This document shows positions 34,020 through 54,720 of a stretch of DNA of 64,000 nt, piece by piece. The position numbers were made by a program, and so were the translations under genes. A model generated the notes under the pieces. It worked only from the letters and a program-made list of their open reading frames with translations. It ran no database searches and was not told the DNA's origin. Location of the stretch: contig PMSI01000002.1 of assembly GCA_003168375.1 (NCBI GenBank), positions 372,001 through 436,000 of the forward strand. The letters run 5' to 3'. Every line of letters begins with the position of its first letter. Position 1 is the first letter of the stretch. This stretch comes from Vulcanimicrobiota bacterium. Its GTDB lineage: Bacteria > Vulcanimicrobiota > Vulcanimicrobiia > Vulcanimicrobiales > Vulcanimicrobiaceae.

Positions 34020-35237
34020 TTAGGCCGCGTCGCGCCAGACGGGGATCATCGACTGCACCTCGCCGCGCCCCTTCGACAAGCTCTGGATGACATGGCCGAA
34101 TCCGCCGGCCGCCGCTTCGAGCGCGTCGAGCGGCATCGCATCACTCGTCACCACGCTGCCGCTCGCGAACCGTACCAGCACCGGCGCGCGTAGCGGCGCG
34201 GACACCAAATCCTCACCCTCGTGCGCCTGCACGCCGCGCTCGCGCGCTTCGAGCGCCGCCAGCACGTCGGCGACGACCGACGACGCGGTCGCGTCACCCC
34301 CCGCACCCGCGCCCGAGAACACCAGCGTGCCGCAGCCGCGTCCGACCACGCGAACCACGTTCTCCGCGCCGCGCGGCCGCGCGAACGGATGATCTTCCGG
34401 CACGAACGCCGGCGTCACGCCGGCCTCGATCACGTCCCCGGCTTTGCGCGCGACCGCGACGAGCTTCAGCCGCAGGCCGCGCTCCGCACCGGCGCGCACG
34501 TCATCGCGCGAGATCCCGCCGATCCCGCGCCGCGCCAGCGCCGGCGAGACCGAGGGGCGGCGGAACGCGAGCCCCGCCAAGATCGCGAGCTTGTGCGCCG
34601 CGTCGTGCCCGTCGACGTCGCTGCGCGGATCCTGCTCGGCGAAGCCGAGCCGTTGCGCTTCCGCAAGCGCGTCCGCGTACTCCGCGCCGCCATCCATCGC
34701 GTCGAGGACGAAGTTGGTCGTACCGTTGAGCACGCCGCCGATCTCGAACACGTCTTCGCCGGCGAGCGATCCGCCGAGCGCGCGCACGATCGGGATCGCA
34801 CCGCCGACCGCGGCCTCGTAGCGCAGCGATGCGCCGGTGCGCGCCGCGAACGCGGCCAGCCACGGCCCCTCGGTCGCGATCAGGTCCTTGTTCGCCGTGA
34901 CGACGTCCTTGCCGCGCGCGATCGCACGCAGGATCAGCTCGCGCGCCAGCCCGAGCCCGCCGATGCACTCCACCACGACCCGCACCGAGGGATCGTCGAC
35001 GACGTCGAACGCGTCGCTCGAGAAATCATCCCACCGAACGTCGCGTGGCTTGTGCGGATCGCGTACCGCGATCCCGCGAATCAGACCCGGATGCGACGCC
35101 AGCAACCGCCGCGCGACCCCCGACCCGACGGTGCCGCAGCCGAGGAGGCCGACCCCGTTCGCGCGCGCCGTCGTCAGCGACGTCGCCGGGGACGAGATCG
35201 CTTCAGACGAGCACAGGACACGCGGTAGGGTTTGCAC
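34020..35237 (-). CDS. hom: Homoserine dehydrogenase
   Basis: 405 aa from GTG 35237, 5 nt after GGAGG; an ATG at 35249 would bury that site in the gene. NAD(P)-binding GLLGCGTVGSGVARRLL, then VTANKDLIATEG, GAIPIVRALGGSLAG, GVLNGTTNFVLDAM and QDPRSDVDGHDAAHKLAILA, all diagnostic. It reduces aspartate semialdehyde to homoserine, the branch to Thr and Met. The C-terminal region (about 80 residues) is a reduced or divergent regulatory part; its last residues run through a dispersed repeat unit. A Thr/Ile leader peptide and terminator precede it. Confidence 0.95.
   Translation of the reverse strand: MQTLPRVLCSSEAISSPATSLTTARANGVGLLGCGTVGSGVARRLLASHPGLIRGIAVRDPHKPRDVRWDDFSSDAFDVVDDPSVRVVVECIGGLGLARELILRAIARGKDVVTANKDLIATEGPWLAAFAARTGASLRYEAAVGGAIPIVRALGGSLAGEDVFEIGGVLNGTTNFVLDAMDGGAEYADALAEAQRLGFAEQDPRSDVDGHDAAHKLAILAGLAFRRPSVSPALARRGIGGISRDDVRAGAERGLRLKLVAVARKAGDVIEAGVTPAFVPEDHPFARPRGAENVVRVVGRGCGTLVFSGAGAGGDATASSVVADVLAALEARERGVQAHEGEDLVSAPLRAPVLVRFASGSVVTSDAMPLDALEAAAGGFGHVIQSLSKGRGEVQSMIPVWRDAA
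34068..34085 (-). repeat. Dispersed repeat unit (CTTCGACA type) inside hom 3' end
   Basis: CCAGAGCTTGTCGAAGGG on the minus strand matches units at 37540-37557 and 61489-61504 (consensus TGAGCYYGTCGAAGGG). It encodes part of the hom C-terminus (QSLSKG). Confidence 0.5.
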
Positions 35238-48750: not shown

Positions 48751-48826
48751 CCGCCCGCAGCGAACATGACTGCCCGAGCAGCGCGTGGAACCCCGTCGGC
48801 TCGACGCAGGGCATCCGGAGGACGCG

Positions 48827-49048
48827 ATGATCACGATCAAGACTCGATTGAACGGGCCGTACTTGGTGACCGGTGACTTGAGCGAGCTCACCCTGACCGA
48901 CGCCGACGGCAACCCCTACGACCTCAGCGGCCAAATCAACATCGCGCTGTGCCGCTGCGGCGGCTCGACGACCAAACCGTTCTGCGACGGCACGCATTCC
49001 AAAATCGGATTCCAGGCCGCCGAAGCCGCCGTGCGGGCACAGGTATGA
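48827..49048 (+). CDS. CDGSH iron-sulfur protein
   Basis: 73 aa from ATG 48827 after CCGGAGG. An N-terminal strand region (LNGPYLVTGDLSELTLTDADG) is followed by LCRCGGSTTKPFCDGTHSKIGF, the 3Cys-1His [2Fe-2S] site. Such small proteins carry electrons or clusters in the cytoplasm. Its stop overlaps the start of the phnD-like gene. Confidence 0.88.
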   Translation: MITIKTRLNGPYLVTGDLSELTLTDADGNPYDLSGQINIALCRCGGSTTKPFCDGTHSKIGFQAAEAAVRAQV

Positions 49049-49923
49049 GCGTGCGGATGTTCTCGTCGCGGCCGATCTCGCGCCGCTGCGTCCTCGCCTC
49101 GGGCGCCGCGCTGGTCGCACTGAGCGCGCTGCCCCGTCGCGCCCGGGCGGCCACCGCCCTGCGCGTCGGCATGATCCCTGATGCCGGCGCAACGCAGATC
49201 TCGATCGATCAGAAAAAGCCCCTGCGCGACTACCTCGCCGCCAAGCTCGGGCGCGACGTCGACCTCGTCATCCCGACGAACTACAACGCAACCGTCGAAG
49301 CCCTCGGCAACGGATCGCTCGACTTCGCGTACCTGGGGGGCCTGACATACGTCAAGGCCCACGCGCAGTACGGCGTCGTCCCGCTGGTGCAGCGCACCAG
49401 CGACCGCGAGTTCCACTCGCTGTTCATCACCCAGACCGCCGCCCCGATCAACGCGCTGAAGGATATTCGCGGCAAGAAGTTCGCCTTCGGCGACATCAAC
49501 TCGACCAGCGGCCACCTGATGCCGTTCTATGCGATGACGCAGGCCGGAATCGATCCGGACAAAGACCTGAGCTACCGCTACACCGGCAACCATCCGGCGA
49601 CGGCCAAGGCGGTCGAGTCGGGCGCGGTCGACGCCGGGGCGATCGACGAAAGCGTCTACCGTGCGATGCTCGACGGCGGCCAGCTCGACAAGAGCAAGAT
49701 GCGCATCTTCTTCACCACCCCGCCGTTCCTCGACTACGTCTGGGTCGCGCGCAAGGACTCCGCGCCCGCCGACCGCACCGCCTTCGCCGGCGCCTTCCTC
49801 TCGCTTCACGCCCCCGGCGACGCCGCGGTGCTGGAGATCCTGCGCGGTACGTCGTTCGTCCGCGCGAACGACGGCGAGTACGACCTGCTGCGGACGATCG
49901 CGACGAAACTGAAACTGCTCTAG
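49045..49923 (+). CDS. phnD: Phosphonate/phosphite ABC substrate-binding protein
   Basis: 292 aa from ATG 49045. A twin-arginine-like signal (SRRCVLASGAALVALSA) precedes the PhnD fold: LRVGMIPDAGATQISIDQKKPLRDYLAAKLGRDVDLVIPTNY, EALGNGSLDFAYLGGLTYV, KFAFGDINSTSGHLMP. Periplasmic receptor for phosphonates, phosphite or a similar anion. First of three transporter genes (phnD-phnC-phnE). Confidence 0.88.
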   Translation: MSVRMFSSRPISRRCVLASGAALVALSALPRRARAATALRVGMIPDAGATQISIDQKKPLRDYLAAKLGRDVDLVIPTNYNATVEALGNGSLDFAYLGGLTYVKAHAQYGVVPLVQRTSDREFHSLFITQTAAPINALKDIRGKKFAFGDINSTSGHLMPFYAMTQAGIDPDKDLSYRYTGNHPATAKAVESGAVDAGAIDESVYRAMLDGGQLDKSKMRIFFTTPPFLDYVWVARKDSAPADRTAFAGAFLSLHAPGDAAVLEILRGTSFVRANDGEYDLLRTIATKLKLL

Positions 49924-49927
49924 GTCG

Positions 49928-50614
49928 ATGATCGAGATCAGCGGCGTGCGCGTCGTGTACGGACCCGGCGCGCCGCCCGCTCTCGATGACGTCACGCTCC
50001 GGATCGCGGCCGGCGAGTGCGTCGCGCTCGTCGGGCCGAGCGGCAGCGGGAAGACGACGCTGCTGCGCTCGCTCAACGGCACCGTGGCGATCGCCGGCGG
50101 GAGCATCCACGTCGACGGCGTCGAGGTCGCGAAGCTGCGCGGACGCGCGCTGCGGCGGCTGCGCGCGCGGCTCGCAATGATCGCGCAGCAGCACGACCTG
50201 GTCGATCGGCTGACCGTCGTGCAGAACGTCATGGCCGGCGCGCTTGGCCGGTGGAGCACGCCGCACGCGCTGCGCTTCCTGATCGCGCCCACGGCGGCCG
50301 AGCTCGCGGAAGCGAGCGCAGCGCTGACCGCCGTCGGGATCCCCGAGAAGCTGCGCAACCGCACGAACGAGCTGTCCGGCGGTCAGCGCCAGCGCGTGGC
50401 GATCGCGCGCGCGCTCGTCCAGCACCCGACGGCGATCCTGGCCGACGAGCCGATCGCATCGCTCGACCCGGCGCTCGGCGAGCAGATCGTCCGCCTGCTG
50501 TGCGATCTCGCGCGGGAGCGGAACCTCGCCCTGCTCTGCTCGCTCCACCAGATCGAGGTCGCACGCCGCCACTTCGATCGCGTCGTCGAACTCGTCGGCG
50601 GCCGCGTCGCGTGA
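49928..50614 (+). CDS. phnC: Phosphonate-type ABC transporter ATPase
   Basis: 228 aa. Walker A GPSGSGKTT, Q-loop AMIAQQHDLVDRLTVVQNVMAGAL (the PhnC-type segment), signature LSGGQRQRVAIARAL, Walker B ILADEPIASLDP and switch His CSLHQ. Its stop overlaps the permease GTG. Confidence 0.9.
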   Translation: MIEISGVRVVYGPGAPPALDDVTLRIAAGECVALVGPSGSGKTTLLRSLNGTVAIAGGSIHVDGVEVAKLRGRALRRLRARLAMIAQQHDLVDRLTVVQNVMAGALGRWSTPHALRFLIAPTAAELAEASAALTAVGIPEKLRNRTNELSGGQRQRVAIARALVQHPTAILADEPIASLDPALGEQIVRLLCDLARERNLALLCSLHQIEVARRHFDRVVELVGGRVA

Positions 50615-52030: not shown

Positions 52031-52750
52031 CTAACCGCGCCGGTTTGCCGCCACCGTCTCCGCGAACCCGGGCGGTTTGGGCGGCAGTCCCTCGAAGAGC
52101 GCTCGAACGAACCCATCTGCGCCGGCGTGCTGGAGCGCCGTGTTGTGGCGACGTTCGAATCCGATGGTCGAGGACGGCTTTGCGCTCATCGCGCGCCCGC
52201 ACGGACTCCCCGCGATGTGTGCCGGGTACACCTCCACATGATCGGGTAACGCCAGGAGCCGCTGAAGTGAGGCGAAGAGCTGCCGTCCGGCGTCCTCACC
52301 GCCGAAGTCGGGCCTCCCCACGTCGCCGACGAAGAGGGTATCACCCGTCAGGACCAGCCACGGTTCGTCGGCGCGCGCGCGATCGGTGACCAGGAGCGAG
52401 ATACTCTCGAGTGTGTGGCCCGGTGTATGCATCACGCGAACGACGACGTTACCGAGCGAGATCTCAGCGCCGTCGTCGAGCGGTGTGAACGGATACGCCA
52501 GCTCGGCGGAGCGGTGCAGATAGAGTCCCGCATTCGTCCGTGCGGCGAGGGCACGCTCTCCGGAACGATGGTCGGCGTGGACGTGCGTGGAGATGACCGC
52601 CTCGATACGGATCCCGTAGCCGGCTGCGATATCCACGTATTGAGCGACCTCGAACTGAGGATCGACGACCGCGCCGCGGCCTTGGCCGCCTCAACCGAAG
52701 ACGTAGGACGCGCAACCCGTTTCGGCTCGAAGAATCTGGCGGAAGATCAC
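52031..52750 (-). CDS. MBL-fold hydrolase with in-frame UGA at codon 20 (candidate selenoprotein or nonsense allele)
   Basis: GTG 52750 (GAGGAG upstream; GTGA overlap with the MFS gene) begins VIFRQILRAETGCASYVFG, then TGA at 52693-52691, then GGQGRGAVVDPQ and a complete metallo-beta-lactamase domain: zinc motif HVHADH (residues 56-61), TPGHT, LTGDTLFVGDVGRPD and AGSPCGRAMSAKPSSTIGFERR. It belongs to the persulfide-dioxygenase/Blh-like branch, in which the UGA position is expected to be Cys (YxxGC). No frameshift is present. Downstream of UGA, a stem GAUCCUC/GAGGUC with loop AGUUC lies 34 nt away. Without read-through, only an internal GTG 52636 start would give a product (201 aa) lacking the first strands. 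Confidence 0.72.
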
Positions 52751-54024
52751 GACGGTGCTCCTCGAGGGACGAGTGCGGGAAGCCGAGGATGTGTTTCGCG
52801 CATCCGGACGGCGACGACCGCACCGGACGCCAGGGTGAGGCCGGCGACCACGCCGATTGCGACGTCCTGGCCGAGCGCGTGCGCGACGATACCCGACAAC
52901 AGCGCGCCGAACGCGTAGCCGGAATCGCGCCACAAGCGGTAGACGCCGACCGACGACGCGCGCACGAGCGGATCGACCACGTCACCGATCGCGGCGAGCA
53001 GCGTTGGATACACCATCGCGGTTCCGACACCGAGCAGGAGCGCGCCGCTGAGCCAGACCGCGAAATTCGCCGGCGCCAGAAACGAGGCGATGGCGATCGC
53101 CTGCGCCCACATGCCGCCGGCGATCATCCACTTGCGACCGACGCGGTCGGAGAGCGCTCCGGTGACGAGCTGGCACAGTCCCCACGTCGCCGGATAGACG
53201 GCGGCGAGGATGGCGATGCGTTCGATGGCGAGACCGGCGGCTGCGAAGTGCAGCGGCAGCAGTCCCCAGGCCAGCCCGTCGTTGAGATTGTTGACGAGGC
53301 CGGCTTGGCTGATCGATGAGAGGGTGCGGTCCTTCCACGAAACGCGTGCGAAGAGCGCGCCGAACGAAGCGCCGGCCGCCGGGCGAGGCGATTCCCCGTG
53401 CGCGGCTTCAAACCGGGCGTGACCGTGCGTCTCGCGAACGAAGAACACGGAGAGCGCCAGCGCAACGACGACGGAGACCACCCCGAGCGCGAACGGCCAG
53501 GGGCGCAGCCCGTACGCCTGCGCGATGATCCCCGACACGTACGCCGCGACACCGACGGCGAGGTAACCGGCAAACTCGTTGAGTCCCATCGCCAACCCGC
53601 GCTGCTTCGGTCCGACGAGATCGATCTTCATCACCACCGTCATGGACCAGCACAGTCCTTGATTGATGCCGAGAAAAACGTTTGCGAGGACGATCCAGCC
53701 CCACGCCGGCGCGAACATCAGCAGGAACGGAACCGGAATCGCGAACAGCCATCCCGCAACGAGCAGGGGCTTGCGGCCCGCGCGGTCGGCCGTTCGGCCG
53801 GCATACAGATTCGTCAGCGCCTTGGTGAAGCCGAACGTAACGATGAACGAGAGCACCGCGGTCTCGGATGCGAGGCCGAACACGCGCTGGCCGACCAGCG
53901 GCAGCACGTCGCGTTCGATGCCGATCATGGAACCGACGAAGGCGTTGACCACGACCAGCAGCCAAAACTGCGTCACGTTCGCGGCCAGACCGAGCCGGAT
54001 GCGCCCGGCAGTCTCAGCCGACAC
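52747..54024 (-). CDS. MFS transporter
   Basis: 425 aa from GTG 54024 (GGCGAGG upstream), overlapping the regulator stop. Twelve helices; NLYAGRTADRAGRKPLLVAGW is the MFS loop 2-3 motif, and GALSDRVGRKWMIAGG the loop 8-9 copy. FGFTKALTN and NEFAGYLAVGV recall a group of drug/anion MFS proteins. Placed between an ArsR-rhodanese regulator and an MBL hydrolase, it may export or import a sulfur compound; this is inference. Confidence 0.88.
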   Translation of the reverse strand: MSAETAGRIRLGLAANVTQFWLLVVVNAFVGSMIGIERDVLPLVGQRVFGLASETAVLSFIVTFGFTKALTNLYAGRTADRAGRKPLLVAGWLFAIPVPFLLMFAPAWGWIVLANVFLGINQGLCWSMTVVMKIDLVGPKQRGLAMGLNEFAGYLAVGVAAYVSGIIAQAYGLRPWPFALGVVSVVVALALSVFFVRETHGHARFEAAHGESPRPAAGASFGALFARVSWKDRTLSSISQAGLVNNLNDGLAWGLLPLHFAAAGLAIERIAILAAVYPATWGLCQLVTGALSDRVGRKWMIAGGMWAQAIAIASFLAPANFAVWLSGALLLGVGTAMVYPTLLAAIGDVVDPLVRASSVGVYRLWRDSGYAFGALLSGIVAHALGQDVAIGVVAGLTLASGAVVAVRMRETHPRLPALVPRGAPS

Positions 54025-54700
54025 GCGCAACCTCGCCGCCGGCGGCGACCCACTCCGCAGGTCCGAGCGCCAGACGCGTGGCGTCCAGGCCTCGTTCGCG
54101 CAGCAGAGCCACTGCTTCGTCCGCGAACACGCAGTACGGCCCGCGGCAATAGACGAGGTACCGCTTCGACCGCGGCAGCGTCACTTGGCCCGAACGCAGC
54201 TCCTCCAGCGGCGCGCTGATCGCCCCCGGCAGGTGGGCCGTGTCGAACTCCTCGCGCGGGCGGGCGTCGAGGACCATCGTCCGCGCATCCGCGAGCAGGT
54301 CGCGCGCCGTCGCGAAGTCCGGGATCCCCGGATCTCGCAGTCCAAAGTACGCCCGCTCGACCTCCGCGATCCGCGAATCCACGGATTCCGCGACGGCACG
54401 CAATGCGACGAGCAGCCGGTAAACGACCGGCCCAGCGACGCGGTAAAACGCGAACGTTCCGCGTCGCTCCACCGTCACGAGCCCGCAATCCGCCAGCACG
54501 CGCAGATGCTGAGAGGCGTTTGCGACCGTGATGCCGGCCTCCGCCGCTACATCTTGCACCGTTCGAGAACGCTGTGACAGGAGGTCGAGCAGCTCGAGCC
54601 GGTGGCGGTTCGCGAGCGCCGCCGGAATGCGGGCTGCGGCGGCATAGACGTCATCCTTGAAGCGGCGCTTCTGGCGGGGACCCCGGGGGCGGCTCGGCAT
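54014..54700 (-). CDS. ArsR-family regulator fused to rhodanese domain
   Basis: 228 aa from ATG 54700 (TTG 54706 possible). N-terminal winged helix: ALANRHRLELLDLLSQRSRTVQDVAAEAGITVANASQHLRVLADCGLV (residues about 25-75), C-terminal rhodanese: MVLDARPREEFDTAHLPGAISAPLEEL and YCRGPYCVFADEA with active Cys. Such fusions sense or handle sulfane sulfur and resemble BigR/SqrR logic. It heads the MFS-MBL operon. Confidence 0.9.
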   Translation of the reverse strand: MPSRPRGPRQKRRFKDDVYAAAARIPAALANRHRLELLDLLSQRSRTVQDVAAEAGITVANASQHLRVLADCGLVTVERRGTFAFYRVAGPVVYRLLVALRAVAESVDSRIAEVERAYFGLRDPGIPDFATARDLLADARTMVLDARPREEFDTAHLPGAISAPLEELRSGQVTLPRSKRYLVYCRGPYCVFADEAVALLRERGLDATRLALGPAEWVAAGGEVARVG

Positions 54701-54720
54701 ATTCAAGAGATTTCGCGAAT
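54701..54720 (-). promoter_or_regulatory. Possible ArsR/BigR-type operator
   Basis: ATTCAAGAGATTTCGCGAAT has inverted ends ATTC/GAAT directly upstream of the regulator gene; consistent with autoregulation by an ArsR protein. Weak evidence. Confidence 0.3.

Follow-up and report, generated by a model that had tools for sequence, protein, structure and literature searches.

An in-frame UGA codon in an MBL-fold gene related to persulfide dioxygenases (PDOs) is very probably decoded as selenocysteine (Sec) in the bacterium whose DNA was analysed here, a stretch of 64,000 nucleotides referred to below as the window. In the explanation that we propose, UGA 52693-52691 would be decoded by the genome's own SelA, SelB, tRNA-Sec and SelD, insertion would be guided by a SECIS element lying 13-48 nt downstream, inside the coding sequence, and Sec would replace a Cys conserved in the PDO branch. 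The gene, which probably forms an operon with those of an ArsR-rhodanese regulator and an MFS transporter (Table 1), is predicted to encode a protein of the PDO (ETHE1/CstB) branch that consists of a single MBL-fold domain. The enzyme's probable activity is the oxidation of low-molecular-weight persulfides to sulfite or the processing of a related species of sulfur, perhaps of selenium, and the MFS protein may export a product or a toxic substrate. To this explanation as a whole, comprising the predicted Sec decoding of the UGA, the PDO-like MBL protein and the likely operon, we assign a probability of about 0.9.

Table 1. Coordinates of the predicted Sec gene, its RNA elements and its likely operon partners in the window.
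Feature	Coordinates	Strand	Remarks
Sec-containing PDO-like MBL-fold gene (predicted)	52031..52750	-	239 aa; GTG start 52750-52748, TAG stop 52033-52031
In-frame TGA (putative selenocysteine)	52691..52693	-	residue 20, context SYVFG-U-GGQGR; TGA at this codon in 45/45 genes
Ribosome-binding-site-like GAGGAG	52758..52763	-	5' of the GTG start
SECIS region hairpin 1	52667..52681	-	GGCCGC-GGC-GCGGUC; nt 13-27 from U of UGA; stem invariant in 11 window-clade genes
SECIS region hairpin 2 (SelB-binding-type core)	52646..52663	-	GA-U-CCUC-AGUUC-GAGG-UC; nt 31-48
MFS transporter gene	52747..54030	-	directly upstream; GTGA overlap with the Sec gene
ArsR-family regulator fused to rhodanese domain	54014..54706	-	first gene of the likely operon

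When TGA is translated as Sec, positions 52750-52031 of the minus strand give a single 239-aa frame, in which TGA 52691-52693 at codon 20 is the sole internal stop. The original prediction had taken this codon as a candidate Sec, pointing to an intact frame on both sides without any other lesion, a good ribosome site and a GTGA overlap with the upstream gene. All of these features were borne out: the frame has one internal stop, GAGGAG precedes the GTG, and the overlap with the MFS gene is real. The candidate itself is now supported by complete machinery, a conserved TGA and Cys in relatives, and from these sequences we infer Sec insertion, a reading of TGA 52693-52691 that is strongly supported.

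Conservation of the codon was assessed by aligning homologues, a check that had been suggested together with the candidate. Among 60 relatives searched, 12 single-domain homologues have one TGA each, all at codon 20; the scans of 149 genomes from the window's phylum and of 95 genomes from the phylum of Candidatus Rokuibacteriota gave 14 genes in all and 31 genes, respectively. TGA is found at codon 20 in 45/45 single-domain genes of these two phylum-level groups (the window gene and 44 homologues, which are 49-92% identical to it). The original description of the gene holds, and the recurrence of the gene in a second phylum goes beyond that description. Outside the Sec groups, Cys occupies the Sec position in 12/12 single-domain homologues (Proteobacteria, Myxococcota and archaea), as had been expected for related enzymes, and in 16/20 rhodanese-fused homologues, the remaining 4/20 having a gap, while this position is Asp, Ser or Ile in remoter MBL proteins. 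The UGA thus shows the pattern sought in bacterial selenoproteins, namely an in-frame UGA that is conserved and aligned with Cys in non-selenoprotein homologues. Since TGA is kept in 45/45 homologous genes and synonymous sites after it are conserved, the observation is far above chance.

The Sec machinery that is likewise sought in the genome of a candidate bacterial selenoprotein is complete. The window genome encodes tRNA-Sec (TCA anticodon), SelA, SelB and SelD, with SelA adjoining SelB, which covers the four components (selA, selB, selC, selD) whose presence the original prediction had left to be checked. A second RF01852 match, at C7:59010, is a tRNA-Ser rather than a tRNA-Sec and was discarded. 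Two further genes of this genome have an in-frame TGA of their own, those for SelD (L166) and for the formate dehydrogenase alpha subunit (L170, motif V-U-HGP). Either SelB or tRNA-Sec is encoded in 11 of the first 12 TGA genomes examined; in the twelfth, which is 83% complete, the SelD gene contains a UGA. SelB is also present in the first Rokuibacteriota genome found, the one genome of that group that was checked. The SelD proteins of the window's clade (L166, L193-L221) are mostly selenoproteins with a two-hairpin SECIS, and a few relatives have Cys instead of Sec (L195, L203, L204, L207, L212, L221).

Past the TGA, the RNA is under more constraint than the protein sequence alone would impose, which is what a SECIS element should show. 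In codons 24-35 of 11 window-clade genes, synonymous identity is 0.90 versus 0.47 in the rest of the gene, and invariant synonymous columns make up 9/12 in this stretch versus 5/138 elsewhere (Fisher p 5e-9). The constrained stretch folds into two hairpins, at nt 13-27 and nt 31-48. Hairpin 1 has 6 bp and a 3-nt loop, to which all variation among the 11 genes is confined; the stems are near-invariant in the window clade, leaving too little variation to reveal covariation. Hairpin 2 begins 27 nt past the TGA and its loop begins after 34 nt, with G second and U third in the loop (G39 at 52655, U40 at 52654) and a bulged U (U33, 52661) six nt 5' of the loop G. The stem with a bulged U, loop AGUUC, 27/34 nt spacing and G in the second loop position that had been read from the window alone is therefore confirmed, inside the published bounds, and corresponds to hairpin 2; the constrained RNA, with two hairpins, extends beyond what had been seen then. 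An extra hairpin directly after the UGA (GCGGC-CAAG-GCCGC), picked out by eye, is absent in L020 and L025 and was dropped.

The published model of bacterial SECIS elements places the apical loop 16-37 nt after the UGA, with G in the first two loop positions (PMC13188914), its other thresholds being a stem of >= 4 bp and MFE <= -7.5 kcal/mol. The window gene conforms to it with spacing 34, loop AGUUC and -7.6 kcal/mol, which barely passes the limit of -7.5. Fold energies in the family are modest: 41/45 genes reach the limit and the other 4 miss it narrowly. The model is permissive and weak when used alone, because 28% of the other in-frame positions in Sec-family genes pass as well, and it was dropped as sole evidence. 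A stricter, E. coli-type SECIS core occurs after only 2/1208 TGA triplets of the window, one of them being TGA 52691-52693; the other in the same scan is at 35028 on the minus strand.

The SECIS of E. coli fdhF has U17, G23 and U24, and hairpin 2 resembles it: its bulged U precedes the loop G by six nt, and GU occupies loop positions 2-3. The formate dehydrogenase gene of the window genome (L170) itself has a SECIS-like hairpin with the G23/U24 spacing of E. coli fdhF. In its AGUUU loop, nt 23 is G and nt 24 is U, so that AGUUY is common to it and hairpin 2, but the latter sits 16 nt further from the UGA and the stem sequences differ. The SECIS of the clade's SelD has the same two-hairpin layout as the MBL element (nt 13-27 and about 29-48), and its hairpin 1 agrees with the MBL hairpin 1 in place and size and shows compensatory changes.

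A second, different element, GCUGUGG-UGGAU-CCACAGC at nt 22-40, was found in the Rokuibacteriota group and in one gene of the window's phylum. It is paired in 99.6% of cells, and synonymous identity is 0.97 versus 0.54 elsewhere; one compensatory pair was observed, and the covariation signal is weak, being reached by 36/500 shuffles. The published model (PMC13188914) fits the elements of both groups. Having two distinct SECIS elements within one and the same coding frame may help in learning how SECIS RNA evolves.

With respect to the enzyme, the AlphaFold model of the Sec protein (mean pLDDT 80) has its strongest structural matches in 3tp9 (Z 28.2), an MBL-rhodanese protein, and 3r2u (Z 27.9) from S. 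aureus, followed by the PDOs 5ve3 (Z 25.1), 4chl (25.0), and 4ysb and 8zbd (about 24-25). Going by this model, the Sec protein most resembles PDOs of the CstB and ETHE1 kinds, in agreement with its early description as an MBL-fold sulfur enzyme. A candidate 2-His-1-carboxylate triad of iron ligands is retained (H56 in 45/45, H112 in 44/45 and D137 in 45/45 genes) and aligned with that of MxPDO 4ysb. H58, with which glyoxalase-II-like relatives bind a second metal, is Gln in 30/45 Sec forms. PDO-like is the best functional reading of the predicted protein, because the nearest folds are those of PDOs, the candidate iron triad is kept and H58 is often Gln; that a persulfide is the substrate seems somewhat more probable than the opposite.

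The MBL domains of the CstB/PDO-rhodanese fusions (3r2u from S. aureus, 3tp9 from Alicyclobacillus) are 33-40% identical to the Sec protein over its full length, and this branch shares with it the SPCG Cys (184) and has Cys at the Sec position. The Sec protein differs from this branch in that Sec replaces the Cys and that fused rhodanese domains are missing, one such domain being found in the neighbouring ArsR protein. The ETHE1-type PDOs (4chl, 4ysb, 9g8t and the A. caldus PDO) have the same fold, the candidate triad H56/H112/D137 and a GRPD-type motif; their identity to the Sec protein is about 23-32%, and MxPDO 4ysb lacks a Cys at the Sec turn.

The same neighbourhood recurs across the family. 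A homologue of the MFS gene lies beside 42/45 Sec genes, and the same MFS and ArsR-rhodanese neighbours accompany most single-domain Cys genes. An ArsR-type regulator and a transporter that resembles drug-efflux proteins would also suit another enzyme, and the Sec could be real while the protein is not a PDO. It might then be a glyoxalase-II-like thioester hydrolase, or have as substrates thiol species of selenium, tellurium or arsenic that the MFS protein would export. The highest NCBIfam score of the protein indeed belongs to the glyoxalase II (GloB) model TIGR03413, at 85.1 bits against a cut-off of 200.8; the score with the Blh equivalog, a model of a two-domain fusion, is 70.1 bits against a cut-off of 625. 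An adjoining PhnD-like binding protein (48949-49923, plus strand) has its best NCBIfam match in TIGR04553, a putative selenate ABC transporter (211 bits, cut-off 250). However, the PDO structures, at Z 22-28, exceed those of glyoxalase II, at Z 17-19, the candidate iron triad persists where H58 has become Gln, and the ABC transporter adjoins the Sec operon in two genomes only. A function other than PDO is rather unlikely, though more probable than the remaining alternatives. The ABC genes themselves (48949-49923, 49928-50614 and the following permease genes) have a convergent orientation relative to the Sec operon only in the window genome and G004; a selenium link of these genes is possible, but the neighbourhood is not conserved. 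A small CDGSH iron-sulfur protein is encoded beside them (48785-49048, plus strand).

The other explanations deny Sec at the UGA. The best of them, that a short peptide terminates at the TGA and a second product is initiated further down, e.g. at GTG 52636, is very improbable. A GTG-started frame does exist at 52636-52031; however, a restart there would lose the first three MBL-fold strands including the invariant D30, a conserved strand and turn run unbroken through the residues on either side of the TGA, the Cys homologues read straight through, and the RNA after the TGA bears the additional constraint typical of a SECIS element. That the TGA is instead read through ordinary suppression or under an altered code, such as the Trp reading of some bacteria, is hardly credible: the overlapping upstream MFS gene ends in TGA, therefore TGA is also a normal stop in the window genome, the nearest relatives have Cys, and never Trp, in the aligned position, and a dedicated Sec system is present along with the SECIS-like RNA. 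Finally, a TGC-to-TGA nonsense mutation or sequencing error in a pseudogene, which had been the main alternative of the original prediction and needs a single base change from TGC or TGT, is refuted by the conservation of the TGA and the flanking protein in two phyla: an error is untenable because 45 genes from many assemblies have TGA at the same codon, the 19 codons 5' of it are conserved as protein, dN/dS of 0.13-0.29 in sampled pairs indicates purifying selection and no decay of the gene in relatives, and the frames have no other lesion except in the L026 assembly, broken further down.

If the UGA is decoded as Sec, a maximum-likelihood tree with 77 rows implies three changes between Sec and Cys; its deep branches are weak, so that the Sec forms may go back to a single gain followed by losses, to repeated gains, or to transfer from one phylum to another. 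A 2026 inventory lists 119 prokaryotic selenoprotein families, including several rhodaneses and a sulfide quinone reductase; an MBL-fold or PDO family is not one of them (PMC13188914). NCBIfam 20.0 contains no selenoprotein model matching the Sec gene family, and no report of an earlier MBL or PDO selenoprotein was found in the open-licence literature. The rhodanese-like and type III sulfide-quinone-reductase selenoproteins (PMC13188914) are also tied to sulfane-sulfur metabolism and have unrelated folds. We would give even odds to the full proposal that this is the first MBL-fold selenoprotein family, a Sec PDO-like enzyme linked to an MFS protein across two phyla, in which Sec lies remote from the metal and serves as a persulfide or redox relay and not as the catalytic centre. 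An apparently undescribed family, with a fold absent from that inventory, would be added to the bacterial selenoproteome; it comprises 45 genes which standard annotation would truncate or miss, and it would link selenium use to sulfane-sulfur metabolism. It also raises a testable question, namely what Sec does, probably far from the metal, where related enzymes use Cys.

The AlphaFold model has strands at 13-20 and 25-29, a helix at 36-44, and a strand at 48-53, followed by the HxHxDH motif. Judging from this topology, Sec would lie on the 20-25 turn, at the end of the sheet far from the metal motif. Such a position, away from the metal, makes it likelier that Sec has a redox or persulfide role at the periphery than that it ligates the metal. 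We tentatively suggest, at slightly less than even odds, that Sec accepts persulfide or takes part in redox chemistry there, without being a metal ligand. A comparable case may be the A. caldus PDO, where two surface cysteines, both essential, lie well away from the iron; they are glutathionylated and appear to be linked in a disulfide (PMC6060420). Cys13, which all 45 Sec forms have, is at the sheet end near the metal. Many Rokuibacteriota Sec forms (L222-L241, L059) have an extra Cys at residue 26, absent in the window clade, which is near Sec across a predicted hairpin and could pair with it.
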